Source: Candidatus Zixiibacteriota bacterium (GTDB lineage: Bacteria; Zixibacteria; MSB-5A5; DSPP01). Taken from it: 64,000 nt of DNA. Under the pieces are notes generated by a model, which was not told the DNA's origin, searched no databases, and saw only the letters and a list, made by a program, of their open reading frames with translations. Positions 21,785 to 30,738 of this stretch are shown piece by piece. The stretch spans positions 1-64,000 of the forward strand of contig JAKEHY010000032.1 of assembly GCA_022614805.1 (NCBI GenBank), written 5' to 3'. The number at the start of each line of letters is the position of its first letter. Position 1 is the stretch's first letter. The position numbers and the translations under genes are program-made.

Positions 21785-21867
21785 TTACCTTCCGATTCAA
21801 GGCATAAAGCTCAAAACTCCCCCTTCCCTGTTTCGAGAAGGAGGAATTTTGAGCTTTTTGGCTTAAG

Positions 21868-22362
21868 CTACGCTTTTTCCGGCGTTAGCTTCGGCCGCGC
21901 GAGCGCCGCGACCAGCGAAGCGAGCGCAACGAACCCGTTGAAGTACAACAGGTCGGAAGCCGCGGTGTTGCGGAAGAAGGGGAGCGCCGCGGCGTAACAC
22001 TGGACGAGGCCAGTCAGGGTAGGCGAATACATGGAACTGCTGGCCCAGACGCCAAAATTGGAAACGAGATAGAAAAGGCCGGAACCGGCCAGCGGCAGGG
22101 CTATCGACCTCTTAAAACCTTTGGCTTGGCGGGTGAAATAACCGGTGAAAAACAGAACCCCGTAAGAAAGGTAGACCCAAGCGAAACCGGGGTAGAAGCC
22201 CAGTACGAAGTCGGTCGTCAAGACGGCGGCCAACGGCAGCCAGACCTTACTTTTGTCCCCCCTCATCCCGGCCAAAAGAGCCAATGCCCCCAATGGGGCG
22301 AAGTTGGGGGCGTGCGGCAGAAGCCGCAGGAGTATGGTCAAGAGGGCCAGAAAATATATCAT
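21868..22362 (-). CDS. DUF6580 membrane protein, candidate cobalamin carrier subunit
   Basis: 164 residues with about five membrane helices. The N-terminal LLRLLPHAPNFAPLGALALL and LTTDFVLGFYPG are typical of DUF6580, a family similar in layout to substrate-binding (S) components of ECF vitamin transporters. The start at 22362 has AAGGAGG five bases upstream and overlaps the DUF4430 gene by 4 bases, so they are translationally coupled. As the last gene of the cobalamin-riboswitch operon it is the best candidate for moving B12 (or a precursor) across the inner membrane. No ECF ATPase or BtuCD is in the window. Confidence 0.8.
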   Translation of the reverse strand: MIYFLALLTILLRLLPHAPNFAPLGALALLAGMRGDKSKVWLPLAAVLTTDFVLGFYPGFAWVYLSYGVLFFTGYFTRQAKGFKRSIALPLAGSGLFYLVSNFGVWASSSMYSPTLTGLVQCYAAALPFFRNTAASDLLYFNGFVALASLVAALARPKLTPEKA

Positions 22363-22712
22363 TTTTCCTCCTTGTAGCTTTTTTCGAAGCGCCATTCAAT
22401 GGTGTCTTTCGCCGCGGTGGTATAGCGGTCGGAGGCCACCTCCGACTTTTTTCCGTTGACGTAGTAAAGCCAGAACCGGTCTCGTCGGTTGGCTACCCCG
22501 TCAATCGCTTCCACAAAACTTCCCAGCGAAGAGGTTTTCTTTTCCACCTCGTGCGACGCCTCCAAAAGCTCCAGCACCGTTTTTCCGTCGGCGCCATAAT
22601 AGCGGACGGCCAGGGTGCTGTCAACAAGCTCGCCGGCCGGGGGCGTTTTTTCTTTGCCGCCGCAGGCCAGCGCAAAGGCCAGCACCAACATCAACAGGTT
22701 TATTTTTTTCAT
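22359..22712 (-). CDS. DUF4430 (transcobalamin C-terminal-like) lipoprotein
   Basis: 117 residues. The signal ends in a lipobox, FALACGGKE, so it is lipid-anchored. The rest is one DUF4430 domain: LAVRYYGADGKTVLELLEAS, FVEAIDGVANRRDRFWLYYV, NGKKSEVASDRYTTAAKDTI. This domain family is related to the C-terminal beta-domain of human transcobalamin and intrinsic factor, which closes over bound B12. It lies 9 bases after the propeller gene and overlaps the DUF6580 gene. The likely role is to bind cobalamin in the envelope, in the place usually taken by BtuF. Confidence 0.85.
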   Translation of the reverse strand: MKKINLLMLVLAFALACGGKEKTPPAGELVDSTLAVRYYGADGKTVLELLEASHEVEKKTSSLGSFVEAIDGVANRRDRFWLYYVNGKKSEVASDRYTTAAKDTIEWRFEKSYKEEK

Positions 22713-22721
22713 TTTCCTCTC

Positions 22722-23936
22722 CTACCGGCAAGGGGCGGGGCCGCCCGAAAAAACGTGGTACAACAGGCAAACGATGTCGCTGGCGGACAATCCTCCATTC
22801 CGATTTAAGTCAATCTGCGAGTTGCGGGGCCGGGGCTGGCAGTCCGAAAATACGCAATCGACCAGGGATACCACGTCCGCCGCCGAGTGCCGGCTGTCCC
22901 CGTTCAGATCACCGGTCAAAAACGGGTAGGCAATATCGAGCGAGGCCGGGCCGTCCCCCATTTGAAAACTTGCCACCTCCCCATCGGAGGCGTTCAGCTT
23001 TCGCACCGTCCCGTCCGAAAAGCAGGCCACGTAAACGTAGTCGCTGTCGATGTCATAGGCGGCGTCGGTTGCCCCCGTTCCGACCAGGATGGGATTACCG
23101 GGTCCCCGTTCCACCGTTTTGGCGTTCAGGTTCACTTTGTAAACCACCCCGTTTCCCACAAACCCGCCGGCCGGAAGGTAGGCCATATTCCCATAGGTTA
23201 TTGCCGCGCTGGAGGGCTGCCCGCCGGTTAAAATGCTGTCGGTCACGGTCTGGCTCGCCGGGTCAATCAGGTAGAGCGAACCGGCGATGGAACCGAAGTT
23301 TCCCGTGCAGACCACCAGCAGCTTTCCGTCCGGTGTGTTTTTGACGGCCTGCGGGTTGGTCCCCACGTTGATTCTTGCGGTAACGGAATCAAAGGCAAGG
23401 TCGATGACCGCAACTTCCCCCTGCCCGTAGGAAAAATCATTGGGGTTAAATCCGGTGTTGCAGACCCAGATTTTTCCCCGGGCCCGGGCCACCCCCTCCG
23501 GCGATTGGCCAACCGGGAATTCATCCGACACCGTGCGGGAAATAAGGTCGAACTTAGAGACCGTGTTGGTCGCAAAGTTGGTGACGTAGCCAGTGGCCGA
23601 GTCGGCCATCACCAAATTCCACGGATTCCGGCTCGGCTCCAGCTCCACGGTCCCCACTTCCGCCAGCGTGTTGCGGTTAAATACCTGAATGTTACTGGAG
23701 CCGGAGTTTACTGCTAAAAGGTAATTGCCGGAGACCACGACTTGATTGGGAATGATGCCCAAGGTCAATAAATGGTTGGACACGGTGCCGCTGTCCAGAA
23801 TAACCCGGCTGGCCGTCTCGGCCAGTCCATTAACCACCCAGAGCCGGGCGCTCTGGCCTTGGATAAAGCCCGGTGAAAAGAGGATAAGCCCCACCAGCAA
23901 CCCGTTTAAGAGTTTTCCGAAATTTGTTTTCAACAT
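22722..23936 (-). CDS. secreted YVTN-type beta-propeller with dockerin-like tail, BtuG-like
   Basis: 404 residues with a signal peptide (LLNGLLVGLILFSPGFIQG). Residues 30-335 are YVTN-type blades (LLAVNSGSSNIQVFNR, TLGIIPNQVVVSG, INVGTNPQAVKNTPDGK), a seven-bladed propeller by length. The last 65 residues hold two dockerin-like calcium loops (GDLNGDSRHSAADVV and LNRNGGLSASDIV) with paired cysteines. It follows the TonB receptor in a B12-riboswitch operon. In Bacteroidetes the B12 receptor BtuB works with BtuG, a surface beta-propeller that binds B12 very tightly; position and fold suggest the same job here, with a dockerin-like module where BtuG has a lipid anchor. Confidence 0.8.
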   Translation of the reverse strand: MLKTNFGKLLNGLLVGLILFSPGFIQGQSARLWVVNGLAETASRVILDSGTVSNHLLTLGIIPNQVVVSGNYLLAVNSGSSNIQVFNRNTLAEVGTVELEPSRNPWNLVMADSATGYVTNFATNTVSKFDLISRTVSDEFPVGQSPEGVARARGKIWVCNTGFNPNDFSYGQGEVAVIDLAFDSVTARINVGTNPQAVKNTPDGKLLVVCTGNFGSIAGSLYLIDPASQTVTDSILTGGQPSSAAITYGNMAYLPAGGFVGNGVVYKVNLNAKTVERGPGNPILVGTGATDAAYDIDSDYVYVACFSDGTVRKLNASDGEVASFQMGDGPASLDIAYPFLTGDLNGDSRHSAADVVSLVDCVFSDCQPRPRNSQIDLNRNGGLSASDIVCLLYHVFSGGPAPCR

Positions 23937-24083
23937 AACGTTTTTTCCTCCGTTTGACAGGTTAAGAACGAATTACCGCTTCCTATTTCTTCCGCCATTC
24001 CTTATGTTAGTCCACCGGACTCACCTCCTTGCCTTCGGGCGGGTTTTTCTCCTTTTGCAGCCAGCGAGGGAGAAGGGTGAGTC

Positions 24084-26276
24084 CTACCATTTTGCCTCCA
24101 TTCCAAGTTTGATACTCCGGCCCGGCATCGGATAAAGCTCCAAAACCTCGTAGCGCCGGTCGGTGAAGTTTTCCACGGCGAAAGAAAAATTCCATTCCAA
24201 CTTCCAGATTTTCGGAGCCAGCACAATTTGCGCATCGTAGGTCTCGTAGGGCGGCAGATATTTAGTGTTTTCCGCACGGGTGAACCGTTTCCCCACCCAA
24301 CGACCGGTCAGGTTCAAGCTCACGATGCCATAACCGGCCAAAACCCGGGCGTTGTGAATGTGGCGGGGACGAAAAATTAGTTGCTTGCCCTGATGCAAAA
24401 TAAAGTCGGACTCGTTTATCGGCTCGGTCTGGGTGTGATTGAATTCCAGTTCCAAGATTTTCGGAAACTGCCAGGTGATTTTTTCCTCCCGCCCAAAGAT
24501 TTTGGATTTGGAAACGTTTTGGGGGGTGAATTTACCTTCGAAATTTCGTTGCCAAACAATCAAGTTTTTCAGGTCATTGCGGAAAAACGTTTGTTCCAGA
24601 TGCAGCCTTCCCAGCACTGGAAACGTGATGCGATACCCCCCTTCCCGGCTTTCGGCCCGCTCCGGCAGCAGGTTCGGGTTCCCCACGGCAAAGACATCCT
24701 CCTTCCAGAAAAGGGCGTCCAGGGTCGGCAGACGAAAACTTTTTCCCCAGGAGCCGAAAATCCGGGTTTTAATCTTCCGGCCCCAAGAGAATGAGCCGGA
24801 AAAAAGGGGGGAGTAGGCCGGTTGGGTGAAATCGGTCCAGTCCGTCCGGAAAGCGCCGGACGCTCCAAAGGTCAGGTGCAAAAAAAGAGGAAATTGCCGG
24901 TCGGAAAGCAGGCCGGCGCCGCCCGCTTTTCGCAGCGTTTTGCCCAAGCTTTTGCCGGGCCGCAGGTAATCTTTTCCGTCCAAGGAGTTTTCCGTGTAGT
25001 CGGCGCTGATTTGGGTAAGTTGTTTTGATGTTCTCCGGCCCAGCCGGCTTTCAATCTTTTTCCTTTCCGTCCGGTAGCGGGTATCGTAATTGATAACATA
25101 CGGGTCGGGGATTTTGGAATGCTGGGTCAGCTTTTCCCACCCAACGGACGGCTCCAAGAACCAGCCGGACTTGAACGCCGGACGGAAGCGCAGGATTGTC
25201 CCCAAGCGCTCATCCCGTTCGCTGGACAAAGGCGTCAAATGCAGCAGGTCTCCCGGCAGACCGCGGCGGGCCTTGGCCCAGAAAATGGAGGTTTCAAAGT
25301 TTTTATAGCGAAGATTTCCGGAAATCCGGTTGCTCCAGGAAAAGTTCCCCTTGCGCTCGTATTCCTGATTTTTATAGGTGTAGCCGAAATCGCCGCTTGC
25401 CGAGAGATTTTGATAAAAAATGTTCGCTTTTGTGCTTGGAAGCAAAGGTAAGTTCATCTCGCCGCCCACCGAACGATGGCCGAAGCTGCCGGCCTCCGAG
25501 CGCAGCCGCGGCTGGATGCGCCTGCCCCCTTGGGGCTTTTTGGAAATTAAGACGACGGCGCCGGCGACCGCATCCGGCCCGAAACGGGCCGTCTGGCTTC
25601 CTTTGTAAACTTCAATTTTTTCCAAGGCCTCCACGGGGACGAAACTCAAATCGGCCGTGCCGCCCCGGTTGGAATTCAAAGCCCGGCCGTCCAAAAGCAC
25701 CACAACCTGATTGGCCGCGCCGCCCCGAATGGTAATCTCCTCCGCCGAACTGTACAGGCCGCCGGCGCCGAAATCCATTCCCGGCGCGCGCGAAAGAAAT
25801 TCGGCCACCGAAAGATGTTTCGATTTTTGCAAATCGGCGCGGTCAAAAATCAAGCTCGGCTGATAGCCCGCTTGAGGCAAGCTCTCCGCTATTACCACCA
25901 CCGGCGGGCCGGTTATGGCGATGAGGGAGAGTCGGATTTCAACTTGCGTAGTCCCATCCGCTACAACTTTGATTGCAGAAGTATGAACTTGATACGAGGA
26001 GGACTCGACTTTCAGCCGGTAGGCTCCGCCCGGCAGGTCGTAAAAGAAAAACTTCCCCTGCCAATCGGCCGTCGTTTGAGCGCCGGTCTCGATGATTTCG
26101 ACCGCCGCTCCGCCGACGGGTCGGCCGGTGAGGGAGTCGATGACCTGACCGGAAATTTTGAGATTGGACTCGGCTCTAAGTGTAGCGCACCACCCGAAAA
26201 TCAGGATGGCCGCAACGGCCGGCGTTTGGCCGAGGCGAAAAAAAATTCCCGCCTTCGGCGAGAATCGGTTTTCCAT
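24084..26276 (-). CDS. btuB: TonB-dependent outer membrane receptor, BtuB-like
   Basis: 730 residues. Signal peptide at about 15-35 (LGQTPAVAAILIFGWCATLR), a carboxypeptidase-regulatory-like domain at 40-115 (ISGQVIDSLTGRPVGGAAVE), a plug domain at 125-240 (LSVAEFLSRAPGMDFG, EITIRGGAANQVVVLLDGRA, EKIEVYKGS), then a beta-barrel to the C-terminus. A cobalamin riboswitch directly upstream makes the substrate vitamin B12 or a cobamide. Ribosome binding site GGAAGGAG at 26279-26286. 147 bases separate it from the propeller gene. A TolQRA/TonB-type cluster 1.3 kb away could energise it. Confidence 0.92.
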   Translation of the reverse strand: MENRFSPKAGIFFRLGQTPAVAAILIFGWCATLRAESNLKISGQVIDSLTGRPVGGAAVEIIETGAQTTADWQGKFFFYDLPGGAYRLKVESSSYQVHTSAIKVVADGTTQVEIRLSLIAITGPPVVVIAESLPQAGYQPSLIFDRADLQKSKHLSVAEFLSRAPGMDFGAGGLYSSAEEITIRGGAANQVVVLLDGRALNSNRGGTADLSFVPVEALEKIEVYKGSQTARFGPDAVAGAVVLISKKPQGGRRIQPRLRSEAGSFGHRSVGGEMNLPLLPSTKANIFYQNLSASGDFGYTYKNQEYERKGNFSWSNRISGNLRYKNFETSIFWAKARRGLPGDLLHLTPLSSERDERLGTILRFRPAFKSGWFLEPSVGWEKLTQHSKIPDPYVINYDTRYRTERKKIESRLGRRTSKQLTQISADYTENSLDGKDYLRPGKSLGKTLRKAGGAGLLSDRQFPLFLHLTFGASGAFRTDWTDFTQPAYSPLFSGSFSWGRKIKTRIFGSWGKSFRLPTLDALFWKEDVFAVGNPNLLPERAESREGGYRITFPVLGRLHLEQTFFRNDLKNLIVWQRNFEGKFTPQNVSKSKIFGREEKITWQFPKILELEFNHTQTEPINESDFILHQGKQLIFRPRHIHNARVLAGYGIVSLNLTGRWVGKRFTRAENTKYLPPYETYDAQIVLAPKIWKLEWNFSFAVENFTDRRYEVLELYPMPGRSIKLGMEAKW

Positions 26277-26301
26277 TCTCCTTCCCGCGAAGGTATATGG
26301 T

Positions 26302-26464
26302 TCTTGCTTGGGCAGGTCTCCTGGCTTGCAGCAACTCCCGGGCGCCTTCCCATCCCGAAGGACAGTGGCTTTTTGCCCGGGTCCGGCTGCTCACAGTAGC
26401 GGGGCTGCGGCGGTTTTTCACCGCCTTCCCTATTAAGCTCGACGAGCGCCGAAGCTCTGACACA
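26302..26464 (-). ncRNA. cobalamin riboswitch
   Basis: Read on the minus strand. It shows the conserved core in order: GGGAA...GGTG-AAAAA-CC, CCCCGCTACTGTGA, GCCACTGTCC, and the B12 box AAGCCAGGAGACCTGCCC (26309-26326). It ends about 25 bases before the receptor start, with the ribosome binding site just after it, so B12 probably shuts off translation of the whole operon. Confidence 0.96.
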
Positions 26465-26563
26465 GATAATCTATTCCGGATGTTCATCCGTGTCAAGAAA
26501 AAAAAGGGTAGTGGCGCAATTTGGTCTGGTAATTATATTCCCCAAAAAGGAGGATACTACTTA

Positions 26564-27406: not shown

Positions 27407-27553
27407 TCTAAAAGCTCACCTCCTCGAAAAAGTTGCCTCCTGAAAACTCTTTTTCCCGTCATCCTATATTCTACCATTAAAGCAGGCGGGAAATATATGC
27501 CCCTTTGGGGTTGCGTCAAGCGGTTTTTTGTCCGAAAGCCAAAAAGTTTTTGC

Positions 27554-27583
27554 TTGACCTTTTGGCTCAACTTTCCATTTATA
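27554..27583 (+). promoter_or_regulatory. possible promoter of tolQRAB
   Basis: TTGACC (27554-27559), 18 bases, TTTATA (27578-27583). Transcription would start close to 27590, right at the GAGGAGG ribosome binding site, giving a very short leader. Confidence 0.35.
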
Positions 27584-27603
27584 GGCTGTCGAGGAGGAAA
27601 CTT

Positions 27604-28338
27604 ATGCTCTTGTTGGACAATCAAATCTGGCAGTTGGTCACCGGGGCGGATGTTTTTTCAAAAATCATCCTGGCGATTCTGGTCTTTATGTCGGTTGTCT
27701 CCTGGGGGGTGATTGCCACCAAATGGATGCAATATCAGAAAACGCGCGAGGATTCGGAGCGGTTTTTGAACACCTTCCGCCGCCGCCGCAGCGTGGGGGA
27801 AGTTTACACCCCCCTTTCCGGTCTGCGCGGCACGTTCTTGTCCCGGATTCTGGAGCAGGGGGCCAAAGACCAGGCCGAACTTTCCCGCCGGCACGCCCAC
27901 GCCAGCCCGACCGGCGGCAACCCGCATCCGAAACTGGAACTGGGCGCCAAAGCCGAAGGGTATCTGACCAAGGACGACCTGGACACCATTGCCATCACCT
28001 TGAAGCGGGTGGCGCAGGAGGAAATCGTCCGCTTGGAGAAGGGGGTTTCGTTTCTGGCGACCACCGGCAACACGGCCCCCTTTTTCGGGCTTTTGGGAAC
28101 CGTCTGGGGGGTGATGGACTCGTTTCTTTCCATCGGCATACGCGGCCAGGCGACTTTGGCCGTGGTGGCGCCCGGCATCGCCGAGGCTCTGATTGCCACC
28201 ATCGTCGGGCTGGCGGCGGCCATCCCGGCAGTCATCGGGTATAACTATTGTAACAGCCGGTTGAAAACGTTTGCGGCCCAGGCCGAAGCGTTCGGGCTGG
28301 AGCTTTTAACCGCCTTCTGGAAGGAGAGCGGCAAATGA
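27604..28338 (+). CDS. tolQ: TolQ/ExbB-type proton channel subunit
   Basis: 244 residues, inner membrane. The helices are at about 15-37 (FSKIILAILVFMSVVSWGVI), 150-172 (FLATTGNTAPFFGLLGTVWG) and 185-210 (APGIAEALIATIVGLAAAIP). The motif NTAPFFGLLGTVWGVMDSF is the MotA/TolQ/ExbB signature. It forms the proton channel with TolR and drives TolA or TonB. The ATG at 27604 has GAGGAGG; it overlaps tolR by 4 bases. An insert around residues 90-105 is rich in His/Pro. Confidence 0.93.
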   Translation: MLLLDNQIWQLVTGADVFSKIILAILVFMSVVSWGVIATKWMQYQKTREDSERFLNTFRRRRSVGEVYTPLSGLRGTFLSRILEQGAKDQAELSRRHAHASPTGGNPHPKLELGAKAEGYLTKDDLDTIAITLKRVAQEEIVRLEKGVSFLATTGNTAPFFGLLGTVWGVMDSFLSIGIRGQATLAVVAPGIAEALIATIVGLAAAIPAVIGYNYCNSRLKTFAAQAEAFGLELLTAFWKESGK

Positions 28339-28754
28339 GCGTCGATTTGAGTTCGGGGCCGAAGGATTACCGCTTGATGGCGGACATCAACGTCACCAAC
28401 CTGGTGGACGTGGTTTTAGTGCTTTTGATTATTTTTATGATTGCCGCGCCGATGCTGCAGTCCGGCATCGAGCTGAATCTGCCCCGGGCCGCCAGCGCGG
28501 TCAAGGATGCCGCCACCGGCACGGTGATTTCGATAAACGAAAAAAGAGCCATTTTCATCAACGACCAGTTCGTCTCCCTGCAAAAATTTGAAGGGAAGCT
28601 GGCCGGACTGAAGCGGGCCGGCAAAACCAAATCGGTCTTTCTGCGGGCCGACCGGGACGTCCCCTACGGCTTCGTGGTCAACATCATGGGGCGCATTCGC
28701 GCCTTGGGTATCGACCAGGTTGATTTGGTCACCGAACCGGAAAAAGTTAAGTGA
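28335..28754 (+). CDS. tolR: TolR/ExbD-type protein
   Basis: 139 residues: a short cytoplasmic start, one membrane helix (LVDVVLVLLIIFMIAAPML) and a periplasmic domain. The essential Asp is in NLVDVVLVLLIIFM near residue 25. LADRDVPYGFVVNIMGRIRA-like sequence near 110 is typical. It uses proton flow through TolQ to move TolA/TonB. Overlaps of 4 bases on both sides show translational coupling. Confidence 0.93.
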   Translation: MSVDLSSGPKDYRLMADINVTNLVDVVLVLLIIFMIAAPMLQSGIELNLPRAASAVKDAATGTVISINEKRAIFINDQFVSLQKFEGKLAGLKRAGKTKSVFLRADRDVPYGFVVNIMGRIRALGIDQVDLVTEPEKVK

Positions 28755-29383
28755 GAAACCCCTATTTCATCTCCTTTGCCATTCATTTCGTTTTGATTTT
28801 GACTCTGGTTTTCTGGCCGGCGGCGAAAAAACCGGTTTTGCCTCCGTCGCAGACGATTCAAATCCGTTTCCGGGCCGCCGCCCAGGCGGCCCTGCCGGAG
28901 GCGAAGGCGGAGACGGAAATCCCCAAGCCGAAGAAAATCGAAAAACCGGTTCCCCCCGGCCCCAAGTTAGTGGAAAAATTGAAGGAACCGAAAAAAACGC
29001 CTCCCAAAAAGGAGCCGCCGAAGGGCGAGCCGAAAGAACAGCCCAAGCAGACGACCTCCCCCGCCCCGGCCCAAACACCGTTTGGCGAGACCGTTCTGGA
29101 GAACGCCAATTTTCCGTACAGCTACTATCTGGAGCAGATGTTGAACAAAATCGACCAGGCCTGGGAAAACCCGGTCCGTTCCGACCTGCCGCTTTCCACC
29201 GTGATTTACTTCCGGATTCAAAAAAACGGGAGCGTCACCGATTTGCAAATCGAGGCCCCCTCCGGCTTTTCCTCCTTTGACAACGCCTGCCGCCGGGCGA
29301 TTCTCTCTTCCGACCCGTTTCCCCCCTTGCCGTCCGATTTTATCGACCTGTATCTGGGGATTCACCTTGAATTCAAACAATAA
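28751..29383 (+). CDS. tolA: TolA/TonB-family energy transducer
   Basis: 210 residues: N-terminal membrane anchor (FISFAIHFVLILTLVFWPAA), a Pro/Lys/Glu-rich spacer at about 45-110 (KPKKIEKPVPPGPK, KKTPPKKEPPKGEPK), and a C-terminal domain of the TonB/TolA type at 115-205 (YYLEQMLNKIDQAWENPV, FRIQKNGSVTDLQIEAPSG, CRRAILSSDPFPPLP). It starts with GTG at 28751, overlapping tolR. Because tolB follows it is most likely TolA, but the C-terminal domain would also fit TonB, and the B12 receptor is close. Confidence 0.85.
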   Translation: MRNPYFISFAIHFVLILTLVFWPAAKKPVLPPSQTIQIRFRAAAQAALPEAKAETEIPKPKKIEKPVPPGPKLVEKLKEPKKTPPKKEPPKGEPKEQPKQTTSPAPAQTPFGETVLENANFPYSYYLEQMLNKIDQAWENPVRSDLPLSTVIYFRIQKNGSVTDLQIEAPSGFSSFDNACRRAILSSDPFPPLPSDFIDLYLGIHLEFKQ

Positions 29384-29400
29384 GAGCCTTTTGCCGATAT
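29374..29400 (+). promoter_or_regulatory. weak sigma-28-like promoter before tolB
   Basis: CAAA (29374-29377), exactly 15 bases, GCCGATAT (29393-29400). It lies partly inside the end of tolA. It may be a chance match. Confidence 0.25.
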
Positions 29401-29412
29401 AAAAGGAAACCG

Positions 29413-30738
29413 ATGAAAAGACTCGTTCTTCTTTTTTGTCTTCTTACGACCGCCACCGTTTATGCCCAGCGGCCGGACACCTCCGTCCGGTTGACCTTGC
29501 AGCGCACCCCCACCGGGCAGGAGCCGTTTGCCATCGCCATCGAGGATTTCAAGGCGGAGGAGAGCCTGATTCCCGGCGCCGATTTGCACTGGCTGGCGGA
29601 CTTACCCAACATCATCGAAAACGACTTGGAATTCTCCCTTTTCTTCAACGTGGTGGACTTCGATTCCACCTACAAGCGCATCTTCGCCGTAACCGACCCG
29701 ACCTTTGACGACTGGTTCCGCCTGGGGGCCCGCTTCATTTTGCGGGGGAGTTTGAGTTTCAACCCGCGCGAAGTCTCCGCCCAGGTGAAGCTCATCGACG
29801 TGAACGCCCGGCGGGACGTGATGGCAAGAAGGTTCAAGACCGGGCGGGGGTTCGAGCGCCGGCTGGCCCACACGATTTCCGACGCCGTCATCGAGCAGCT
29901 GACCGGGCACAAGGGAGTTTCCTCCACCCAGCTGGTCTTCGCCGGCCAAAAAGACAAGACCAAGGAGCTTTTCGTCTGCGACTACGACGGCGAAAACCCG
30001 TACCAGCTCACCTTCGACAAATCCATCAACCTTTCCCCTGCCTTTTCGCCGGACGCCTCGCAAATCGTCTATACGAGCTACAAATCGGGCGCTCCCGATT
30101 TGTGGGTATTCAATCTCACCTCTGGCAAGGCGAGGCCGATTTCCACCAAAAAGGGGTTGAACGCCAGCGCGGTCTGGTCGCCGGACGGAAAAAGAATCGC
30201 CTTGACTTTGACCATCGACGGCAACCCGGAGCTGTATTTAATCGAGCCGTCCGGCCGGGTGATTTCCCGCCTGACTTACAACGACGGCATCGACACCTCC
30301 CCCACCTTTTCCCCCGACGGGAAGTACATCGCCTTCACCTCCGACCGTTCCGGCTCCCCCCAGATTTACGTGGCGGATTCCGACGGTTTGAACGTCACCC
30401 GCCTGACCTATGAGGGGAGCTACAACGCCTCGCCGGACTGGTCGCCGAACCCGGCCAACCCGCTCATCGCCTACGTGGGGCGGACGACGGCGGATGAACA
30501 GGGAGACTTCAACATCTGCGTCATTTCCTCGACCGGCGGGCCGCGCCAGGTTTTGACCAGCATCGGCTTCAACGAAAACCCGCACTGGTCGGCGGACGGG
30601 TTTCACGTCGTTTTCTCCCGGAAGCAGGGGGGGGAAAGCGACATTTACACGATCGCCTACGACGGCTCTGGCTTGCGCCAGGTGACCACCAGCGGCCGTA
30701 CCTCCAATCCGGTCTGGTCGCCGCGGCCGATACAGTAA
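29413..30738 (+). CDS. tolB: TolB periplasmic beta-propeller protein
   Basis: 441 residues with a signal peptide (KRLVLLFCLLTTATVYA). The N-terminal domain is at about 20-155 (IAIEDFKAEESL) and the six-bladed propeller at 165-435, with TolB repeats such as NLSPAFSPDASQIVYTSYKS, GLNASAVWSPDGKRIALTL and DTSPTFSPDGKYIAFTSDRS. TolB links Pal and the Tol complex, keeping the outer membrane attached during division. It lies 29 bases after tolA. Pal and CpoB are not next to it but at 40684-41983. Confidence 0.95.
   Translation: MKRLVLLFCLLTTATVYAQRPDTSVRLTLQRTPTGQEPFAIAIEDFKAEESLIPGADLHWLADLPNIIENDLEFSLFFNVVDFDSTYKRIFAVTDPTFDDWFRLGARFILRGSLSFNPREVSAQVKLIDVNARRDVMARRFKTGRGFERRLAHTISDAVIEQLTGHKGVSSTQLVFAGQKDKTKELFVCDYDGENPYQLTFDKSINLSPAFSPDASQIVYTSYKSGAPDLWVFNLTSGKARPISTKKGLNASAVWSPDGKRIALTLTIDGNPELYLIEPSGRVISRLTYNDGIDTSPTFSPDGKYIAFTSDRSGSPQIYVADSDGLNVTRLTYEGSYNASPDWSPNPANPLIAYVGRTTADEQGDFNICVISSTGGPRQVLTSIGFNENPHWSADGFHVVFSRKQGGESDIYTIAYDGSGLRQVTTSGRTSNPVWSPRPIQ

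Follow-up and report, generated by a model that had tools for sequence, protein, structure and literature searches.

A cobalamin riboswitch operon of Candidatus Zixiibacteriota that probably takes up vitamin B12 without BtuFCD, with a DUF6580 protein as the predicted inner-membrane carrier

The stretch of DNA analysed here (the window) comprises positions 1 to 64,000 of contig JAKEHY010000032.1 from a Candidatus Zixiibacteriota bacterium (assembly GCA_022614805.1) and carries an operon in which a cobalamin riboswitch precedes the genes for a TonB-dependent receptor, a beta-propeller, a DUF4430 lipoprotein and a DUF6580 membrane protein. This operon probably serves the uptake of vitamin B12 (or other corrinoids) by a pathway which would work without BtuFCD and without the motor of an energy-coupling factor (ECF) transporter, the DUF6580 protein acting as the lone inner-membrane carrier. 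The evidence consists of the riboswitch and the parts encoded behind it, the folds of these parts, the absence of the FecCD and EcfT families, and a linkage of DUF6580 with B12 genes which recurs in many phyla. The features of the operon are as follows.

26294-26468, minus strand: cobalamin riboswitch RF00174 (cmscan, 118.2 bits, full model)
24084-26276, minus strand: BtuB-like TonB-dependent receptor of 730 amino acids with an N-terminal CarboxypepD_reg domain (Pfam, PDB sequence match)
22722-23936, minus strand: secreted YVTN/YncE-type beta-propeller of 404 amino acids, BtuG-like (PDB sequence and profile matches)
22722-22919, minus strand: C-terminal dockerin-like repeat pair of the propeller (Pfam, profile against PDB dockerins)
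22359-22712, minus strand: DUF4430 lipoprotein of 117 amino acids with a transcobalamin beta-domain fold (Pfam, AlphaFold2, Foldseek)
21868-22362, minus strand: DUF6580 membrane protein of 164 amino acids from the ATGA start, predicted solitary B12 carrier (Pfam, AlphaFold2, fold match)
21806-21857, minus strand: 23-bp hairpin, presumed terminator (minimum free energy and z against shuffles)

The riboswitch matches RF00174 over the full model (positions 1-189) at a score of 118.2 bits (E 5.1e-29), well above the gathering score of 31.5, and therefore belongs to this family; an RF00174 search of the whole host genome (38 contigs, 2.56 Mb, 93% complete) found no other cobalamin riboswitch than that of the operon. 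The four genes follow 3' of it on the same strand in the order receptor, propeller, DUF4430 and DUF6580. Only 17 nt lie between the end of the riboswitch and the receptor ATG, which is preceded by a strong Shine-Dalgarno sequence (GGAAGGAG), and the gap between the propeller and DUF4430 genes amounts to 9 nt. The DUF4430 and DUF6580 genes are joined by a 4-base ATGA overlap behind an AAGGAGG motif, so that the start of DUF6580 should be placed at 22362 instead of 22395 as in the mechanically called open reading frame. A perfect 23-bp hairpin 3' of DUF6580 (minimum free energy -38.7 kcal/mol, z -7.4 against shuffles) presumably terminates two convergent transcripts. The description given in the earlier note of a riboswitch with four closely spaced or overlapping genes, one of them bearing a lipobox, is confirmed by these data, and the search for the same neighbourhood which it had proposed recovered such a riboswitch and all four genes in unchanged order from a sister genome within the genus (G006, 99% complete). 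As to its remark that the set of parts is unusual, this applies to DUF6580, while the riboswitch, the receptor and the tailed propeller are usual in the phylum.

The presence of known carriers was assessed by whole-genome family searches. No FecCD/BtuC permease was detected in the operon or elsewhere in the host genome, and no EcfT protein (CbiQ family) in the host genome, leaving neither BtuFCD nor an ECF transporter recognizable there; FecCD is also absent from the sister genome. It should be noted that the FecCD family also covers siderophore permeases. Among the 50 genomes reached through DUF6580 loci, which are assemblies of mixed completeness, 41 contain no full-length FecCD and 47 no EcfT. 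A pathway without local BtuCD, as predicted in the earlier note, is thus supported both locally and genome-wide, and the wide co-occurrence with BtuFCD which had been named beforehand as counter-evidence is not what the 41 genomes show. The host has evident uses for the vitamin, encoding two methylmalonyl-CoA mutase large subunits, one B12-binding subunit and MeaB. The two large-subunit genes are separate and lie together with that of the small B12-binding subunit within 13 kb (L077, 820-2436 and 11493-13262).

The membrane protein is assigned to DUF6580 with a Pfam E-value of 3.9e-36. Its AlphaFold2 model, for which an alignment of 58 sequences (A1) served as input, reaches a predicted local distance difference test score (pLDDT) of 94.9, and among 350,542 PDB chains its fold is matched best by the cyanocobalamin-bound BtuM structure 8c7p (probability 1.00, template modelling (TM) score 0.71, 21% identity); FolT ranks next, ahead of other ECF S-components. 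These results support the earlier suggestion of an S-component-like inner-membrane carrier. It was fold comparison alone that reached BtuM, as sequence and profile searches of the PDB sequences with DUF6580 returned no match, BtuM included. The S-component fold also lends itself to the reading that DUF6580 is an ECF S-component borrowing an ATPase or T-component that escaped recognition, which appears very improbable in view of the lack of EcfT in the host genome and its presence in only three of the 50 DUF6580 genomes. Conserved residues of DUF6580 include Arg17, His21 and Asp55. Cys126 is frequent but absent in some members, and lies elsewhere than the cysteine of BtuM; the invariance of the motif VSNFGVWA in A1 is partly an artefact of selection, because this peptide was a search pattern, and VTNFGAWL or LSNFALW stands in its place in members that were retrieved in a different way.

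A view on the genomic context of DUF6580 across bacteria shows how often the family is linked to B12. Of 65 loci sampled by DUF6580 similarity alone, 34 have either a riboswitch or at least one neighbour linked to B12 at a distance of up to 5 kb, with receptors at 19, BtuF-like proteins at 10, propellers at 8, DUF71 proteins at 7 and adenosyltransferases at 3 loci. A B12 riboswitch is present at 19 loci at least, where fewer than one would be expected on the assumption that 0.6% of loci carry one as background, and the B12-linked members are dispersed through the family tree, in which 13 label changes were counted. The riboswitches belong to RF00174 at most loci and to AdoCbl-II in four Pelagibacteraceae/SAR11-type genomes (L014, L016, L018 and L019), in which the RNA is followed by a TonB-dependent receptor and then by DUF6580. 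The association of DUF6580 with B12 is therefore independent of one RNA family, and the latter arrangement is a candidate for a complete B12 uptake unit in SAR11. Among 114 Gammaproteobacteria, DUF6580 occurs in 17, and six of these genes are located at most 5 kb from a riboswitch. The operons concerned include riboswitch-btuB-PduO-kinase-DUF6580 and riboswitch-btuB-DUF6580-DUF71-BtuF-like-PduO. BtuM is found in the same sample in the order riboswitch-btuB-btuM-btuR (identity verified against 8c7p, E 2e-43); DUF6580 and BtuM occupy the same operon slot in Gammaproteobacteria. A mutual exclusion of the two was discarded as evidence, since the lack of overlap between the 17 and 10 of 114 genomes is not significant (P 0.18).

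A BtuF-like protein (PF01497) recurs beside DUF6580, often together with DUF71, and is devoid of a signal sequence where its start was inspected, which possibly makes it a cytoplasmic corrinoid binder instead of a component of an ATP-binding cassette (ABC) transporter. Such neighbours were seen at L041, L050, L051, L054, L056, L058, L061-L063, L212 and L214. The host genome itself contains a second DUF6580 gene on another contig (C21; L076, 9280-11557), with genes for a BtuF-like protein devoid of a signal peptide and for a DUF71-B12 protein behind it. This copy sits in a patch of 58-64% G+C within a contig of 43-53% G+C, and because of the deviating base composition it may have been transferred or mis-binned.

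Several observations weigh against DUF6580 as the lone B12 carrier. The Foldseek E-value of its match to BtuM is only 0.026, and a profile-profile comparison with four BtuM sequences, collinear over 161 columns at 21% identity, is not significant (hhalign E 0.026, probability 2-3%). Moreover, the invariant loop-3 cysteine of BtuM (Cys80 in Thiobacillus denitrificans) is absent in DUF6580, where the aligned region reads FYPG/LHST. DUF6580 should therefore be regarded as BtuM-like and not as BtuM, lacking both the essential cysteine and significant sequence similarity. In addition, the absence of FecCD and EcfT from the host rests on a 93%-complete assembly, the propeller matches BtuG in sequence no better than it matches other YVTN propellers, and no neighbour linked to B12 was seen at 31 of the 65 DUF6580 loci. 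The last value would also fit a protein carrying some B12-related compound other than whole cobalamin, such as cobinamide, alpha-ribazole, a lower-ligand base or cobalt, under common regulation with the uptake genes. S-components as a class serve many different substrates, FolT ranks second among the fold matches, and the DUF71-B12 and BtuF-like neighbours point to the salvage or remodelling of corrinoids as well as to their uptake (PMC3541065). Such a substrate appears unlikely to us, since DUF6580 is repeatedly paired with receptors of the BtuB type and with cob(I)alamin adenosyltransferases, and since its best fold match, BtuM, is specific for B12.

A further point of the same kind emerges from the phylum. 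Cobalamin riboswitches occur in 99 of 111 phylum genomes and are nearly always single, whereas DUF6580 is found in four and full-length FecCD in two of them (G061 and G062); most other FecCD matches in the phylum reach only 20-45 bits over part of the model and were taken for ABC permeases of other kinds and not counted. About 93 of the 111 genomes thus have a riboswitch with neither DUF6580 nor full-length FecCD, among them some with a BtuB-type operon (e.g., L114, L116, L121 and L144), which implies a further inner-membrane B12 carrier in the phylum, and DUF6580 was rejected as the carrier used throughout it. Such an additional carrier could be present in the host as well. In that case a protein encoded elsewhere may take over the inner-membrane step, with DUF6580 being accessory or redundant, and the second DUF6580 gene of the host also fits this assumption. 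On the other hand, DUF6580 is translationally coupled within the riboswitch operon in both the host and the sister genome, and it recurs in riboswitch operons of unrelated phyla, so that we regard a mere accessory role as improbable. The carrier gap of the phylum weakens the exclusivity of DUF6580 in the host, not its link to B12 elsewhere.

The lipoprotein encoded upstream of DUF6580 is a member of the DUF4430 family (Pfam E 1.9e-15) with the lipobox LACG and a Gly-Gly pair after the lipobox cysteine. Its mature domain is modelled by AlphaFold2 with pLDDT values exceeding 90 over the greater part of residues 40-110, and its 19 best Foldseek matches in the PDB are all transcobalamin, intrinsic factor, haptocorrin or the DUF4430 protein 3u7z (probability 0.96-1.00). 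These include 5no0 and 5np4 at a probability of 1.00, the latter being the human beta domain on its own, in complex with cyanocobalamin. Family model and predicted fold therefore agree on a transcobalamin beta domain of the DUF4430 type, and an assignment as transcobalamin-type B12 binder is supported by the model. The relation to transcobalamin stated in the earlier note is thus upheld; its proposal that this protein replaces BtuF, which implies a periplasmic role, stays putative, and a location at the cell surface is possible. It is nearly, though not quite, an even prospect that the DUF4430 protein is a surface binder comparable to BtuH, feeding the propeller or the receptor, which would be compatible with the rest of the proposed pathway. 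The Gly-Gly pair behind the lipidated cysteine is consistent with this site, as is the occurrence of DUF4430 3' of the propeller in five other loci of the phylum (L128, L137, L138, L139 and L149), all of them without DUF6580, whereas the 4-base overlap with DUF6580 suggests a coupling to the inner-membrane step.

The receptor contains Plug, TonB_dep_Rec beta-barrel and CarboxypepD_reg domains according to Pfam. In the PDB its sequence comes closest to E. coli BtuB (E 1e-18), with a match confined to the plug, and its best NCBIfam model is TIGR01779 at 119.8 bits, far below the equivalog cut-off of 599.7; judged from its sequence, it is classed as BtuB-like and not as a BtuB equivalog. A divergent cluster for TolQ/ExbB, TolR/ExbD, TonB/TolA-like and TolB proteins adjoins the operon (window 27505-30738, plus strand) and might supply energy to Tol-Pal or else to the receptor.

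The propeller was proposed in the earlier note as a counterpart of BtuG, and it is indeed related to solved BtuG-type propellers, matching the BtuG chain 8blw_B at E 8.5e-9, though an S-layer YVTN propeller gives a better score. A profile of 17 phylum propellers finds PDB chains of the BtuG type with E-values no better than 2e-15 and likewise scores better with the S-layer YVTN protein 1l0q, so that the link to BtuG rests on gene position as much as on sequence: a YncE/YVTN propeller adjoins a BtuB-type receptor under a B12 riboswitch. No lipobox and hence no lipid anchor of the BtuG type was found at the N-terminus of the propeller, while its homologues in Bacteroidota are lipoproteins with a lipobox. 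The dockerin-like tail is weak in the single protein (Pfam Dockerin_1 E 0.15, below the cut-off), but scores E 2e-10 and 9e-5 in operon homologues, and the 17-propeller profile matches solved PDB dockerins at E 4e-7, in agreement with a two-repeat type I dockerin. Inspection of 39 regions downstream of riboswitches showed a recurrent phylum operon of riboswitch, receptor and propeller, and most propellers of this operon type end in a dockerin-like repeat pair. On these sequence grounds the tail is real and common in the phylum; the existence of the module as noted earlier is upheld, its supposed peculiarity to this gene is rejected, and its role in anchoring stays putative. In six genomes (L117, L129, L135, L136, L147 and L148) the pair is replaced by a Por_Secre/FlgD-like tail, as seen by inspection and checked with Pfam in L136. 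The tails thus appear to be interchangeable sorting or anchoring modules, and their exchange among relatives would fit a role in sorting the propeller to the surface or holding it there. A conserved protein of about 140 amino acids (MSxWxFEYxIDxDxENxI...) was also observed 3' of the riboswitch-controlled receptor within one family of the phylum, where many genomes encode it (L114, 3877-4305; L116, 6611-7039; L142, 3423-3842; and others).

We infer from these parts that each of the encoded proteins may bind B12 and hand it over in the following order. Low cobalamin would de-repress the operon via the riboswitch, as expected from its RNA family, and the secreted propeller would capture corrinoids at the surface and deliver them to the BtuB-like receptor, which would move them across the outer membrane with energy from TonB. 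The DUF4430 lipoprotein may then take over the corrinoid by means of its transcobalamin-type beta domain, and DUF6580 would pass it through the inner membrane alone and without an ATPase, as proposed for BtuM. The vitamin would finally be held inside by adenosylation and by its use in methylmalonyl-CoA mutase. Trapping by adenosylation, which has been suggested for BtuM (PMC6072759), would fit the adenosyltransferase genes found beside DUF6580 in other genomes.

Many B12-auxotrophic Gram-negative bacteria possess BtuB without BtuCDF, and their inner-membrane importer is mostly unknown (PMC6072759). The presence of DUF6580 in B12 riboswitch operons of many phyla, its BtuM-like fold and the mostly FecCD-free genomes of its hosts make this gap directly testable. 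SAR11 is an abundant marine clade and auxotrophic for B12, and the placement of DUF6580 under a riboswitch class of its own in at least some SAR11 members would bear on the movement of B12 through ocean communities. We slightly favour the wider view that the widespread DUF6580 proteins form a second family of solitary B12 importers of the S-component type, which differs from BtuM in sequence and lacks the cobalt-ligating cysteine, that this family fills the inner-membrane step in many BtuB-bearing, BtuFCD-free bacteria including SAR11, and that it accepts B12 from a transcobalamin-like lipoprotein in the operon described here. If true, a bacterial protein akin to transcobalamin and intrinsic factor, the B12 carriers of humans, would have its place in the B12 pathway of a Gram-negative organism. 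BtuM, BtuG and transcobalamin-like proteins are already known, whereas the combination of such parts without BtuFCD and the role of DUF6580 as a B12 carrier family appear to be new. No literature naming DUF6580 was found, and that retrieved under PF20221 concerns unrelated topics as judged from the titles. The name BtuN is used in two papers for a predicted B12 transporter, which may or may not denote the DUF6580 family, as its sequence is not given there.

Among known systems, the closest comparison is that with BtuM of T. denitrificans (8c7p; PMC6072759). Both are small membrane proteins of the S-component fold encoded in riboswitch-btuB operons beside adenosyltransferases, a conserved Asp and an Arg/His near the N-terminus align between them, and the hosts of DUF6580, like those of BtuM, mostly lack EcfT, with no ECF module found in the present genome. 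DUF6580 differs by the lack of significant sequence or profile similarity, by the absence of the invariant loop-3 cysteine, which is essential in BtuM and ligates cobalt (PMC6072759), and by its spread to Bacteroidota, SAR11, the host phylum and others besides Gammaproteobacteria. The BtuB-BtuG-(BtuH)-BtuFCD system of Bacteroides (PMC12751083) shares with the operon the riboswitch, a CarboxypepD_reg-type receptor and an adjacent B12 propeller, and Bacteroidota relatives carry the order riboswitch-DUF6580-receptor-lipoprotein propeller; the operon described here is distinguished by the lack of BtuFCD, by a propeller which is not a lipoprotein and bears a dockerin-like tail, and by the addition of DUF4430 and DUF6580. 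Transcobalamin and its bacterial relatives have been recognized as one superfamily, with a predicted role in B12 scavenging together with CbiO/CbiQ in Gram-positive bacteria (Burroughs and colleagues, PMC1796856). The transcobalamin-like SLBB proteins of that system resemble the DUF4430 protein in their beta-domain fold and predicted B12 scavenging, whereas the latter lacks the alpha/alpha toroid and belongs to an outer-membrane B12 system in a genome where no EcfT was found. Finally, DUF71-B12 proteins with an ENGEFH-type motif adjoin DUF6580 in several phyla and at the second copy of the host, as they do BtuCDF in the published salvage clusters (PMC3541065), with DUF6580 standing in the place of BtuCD.

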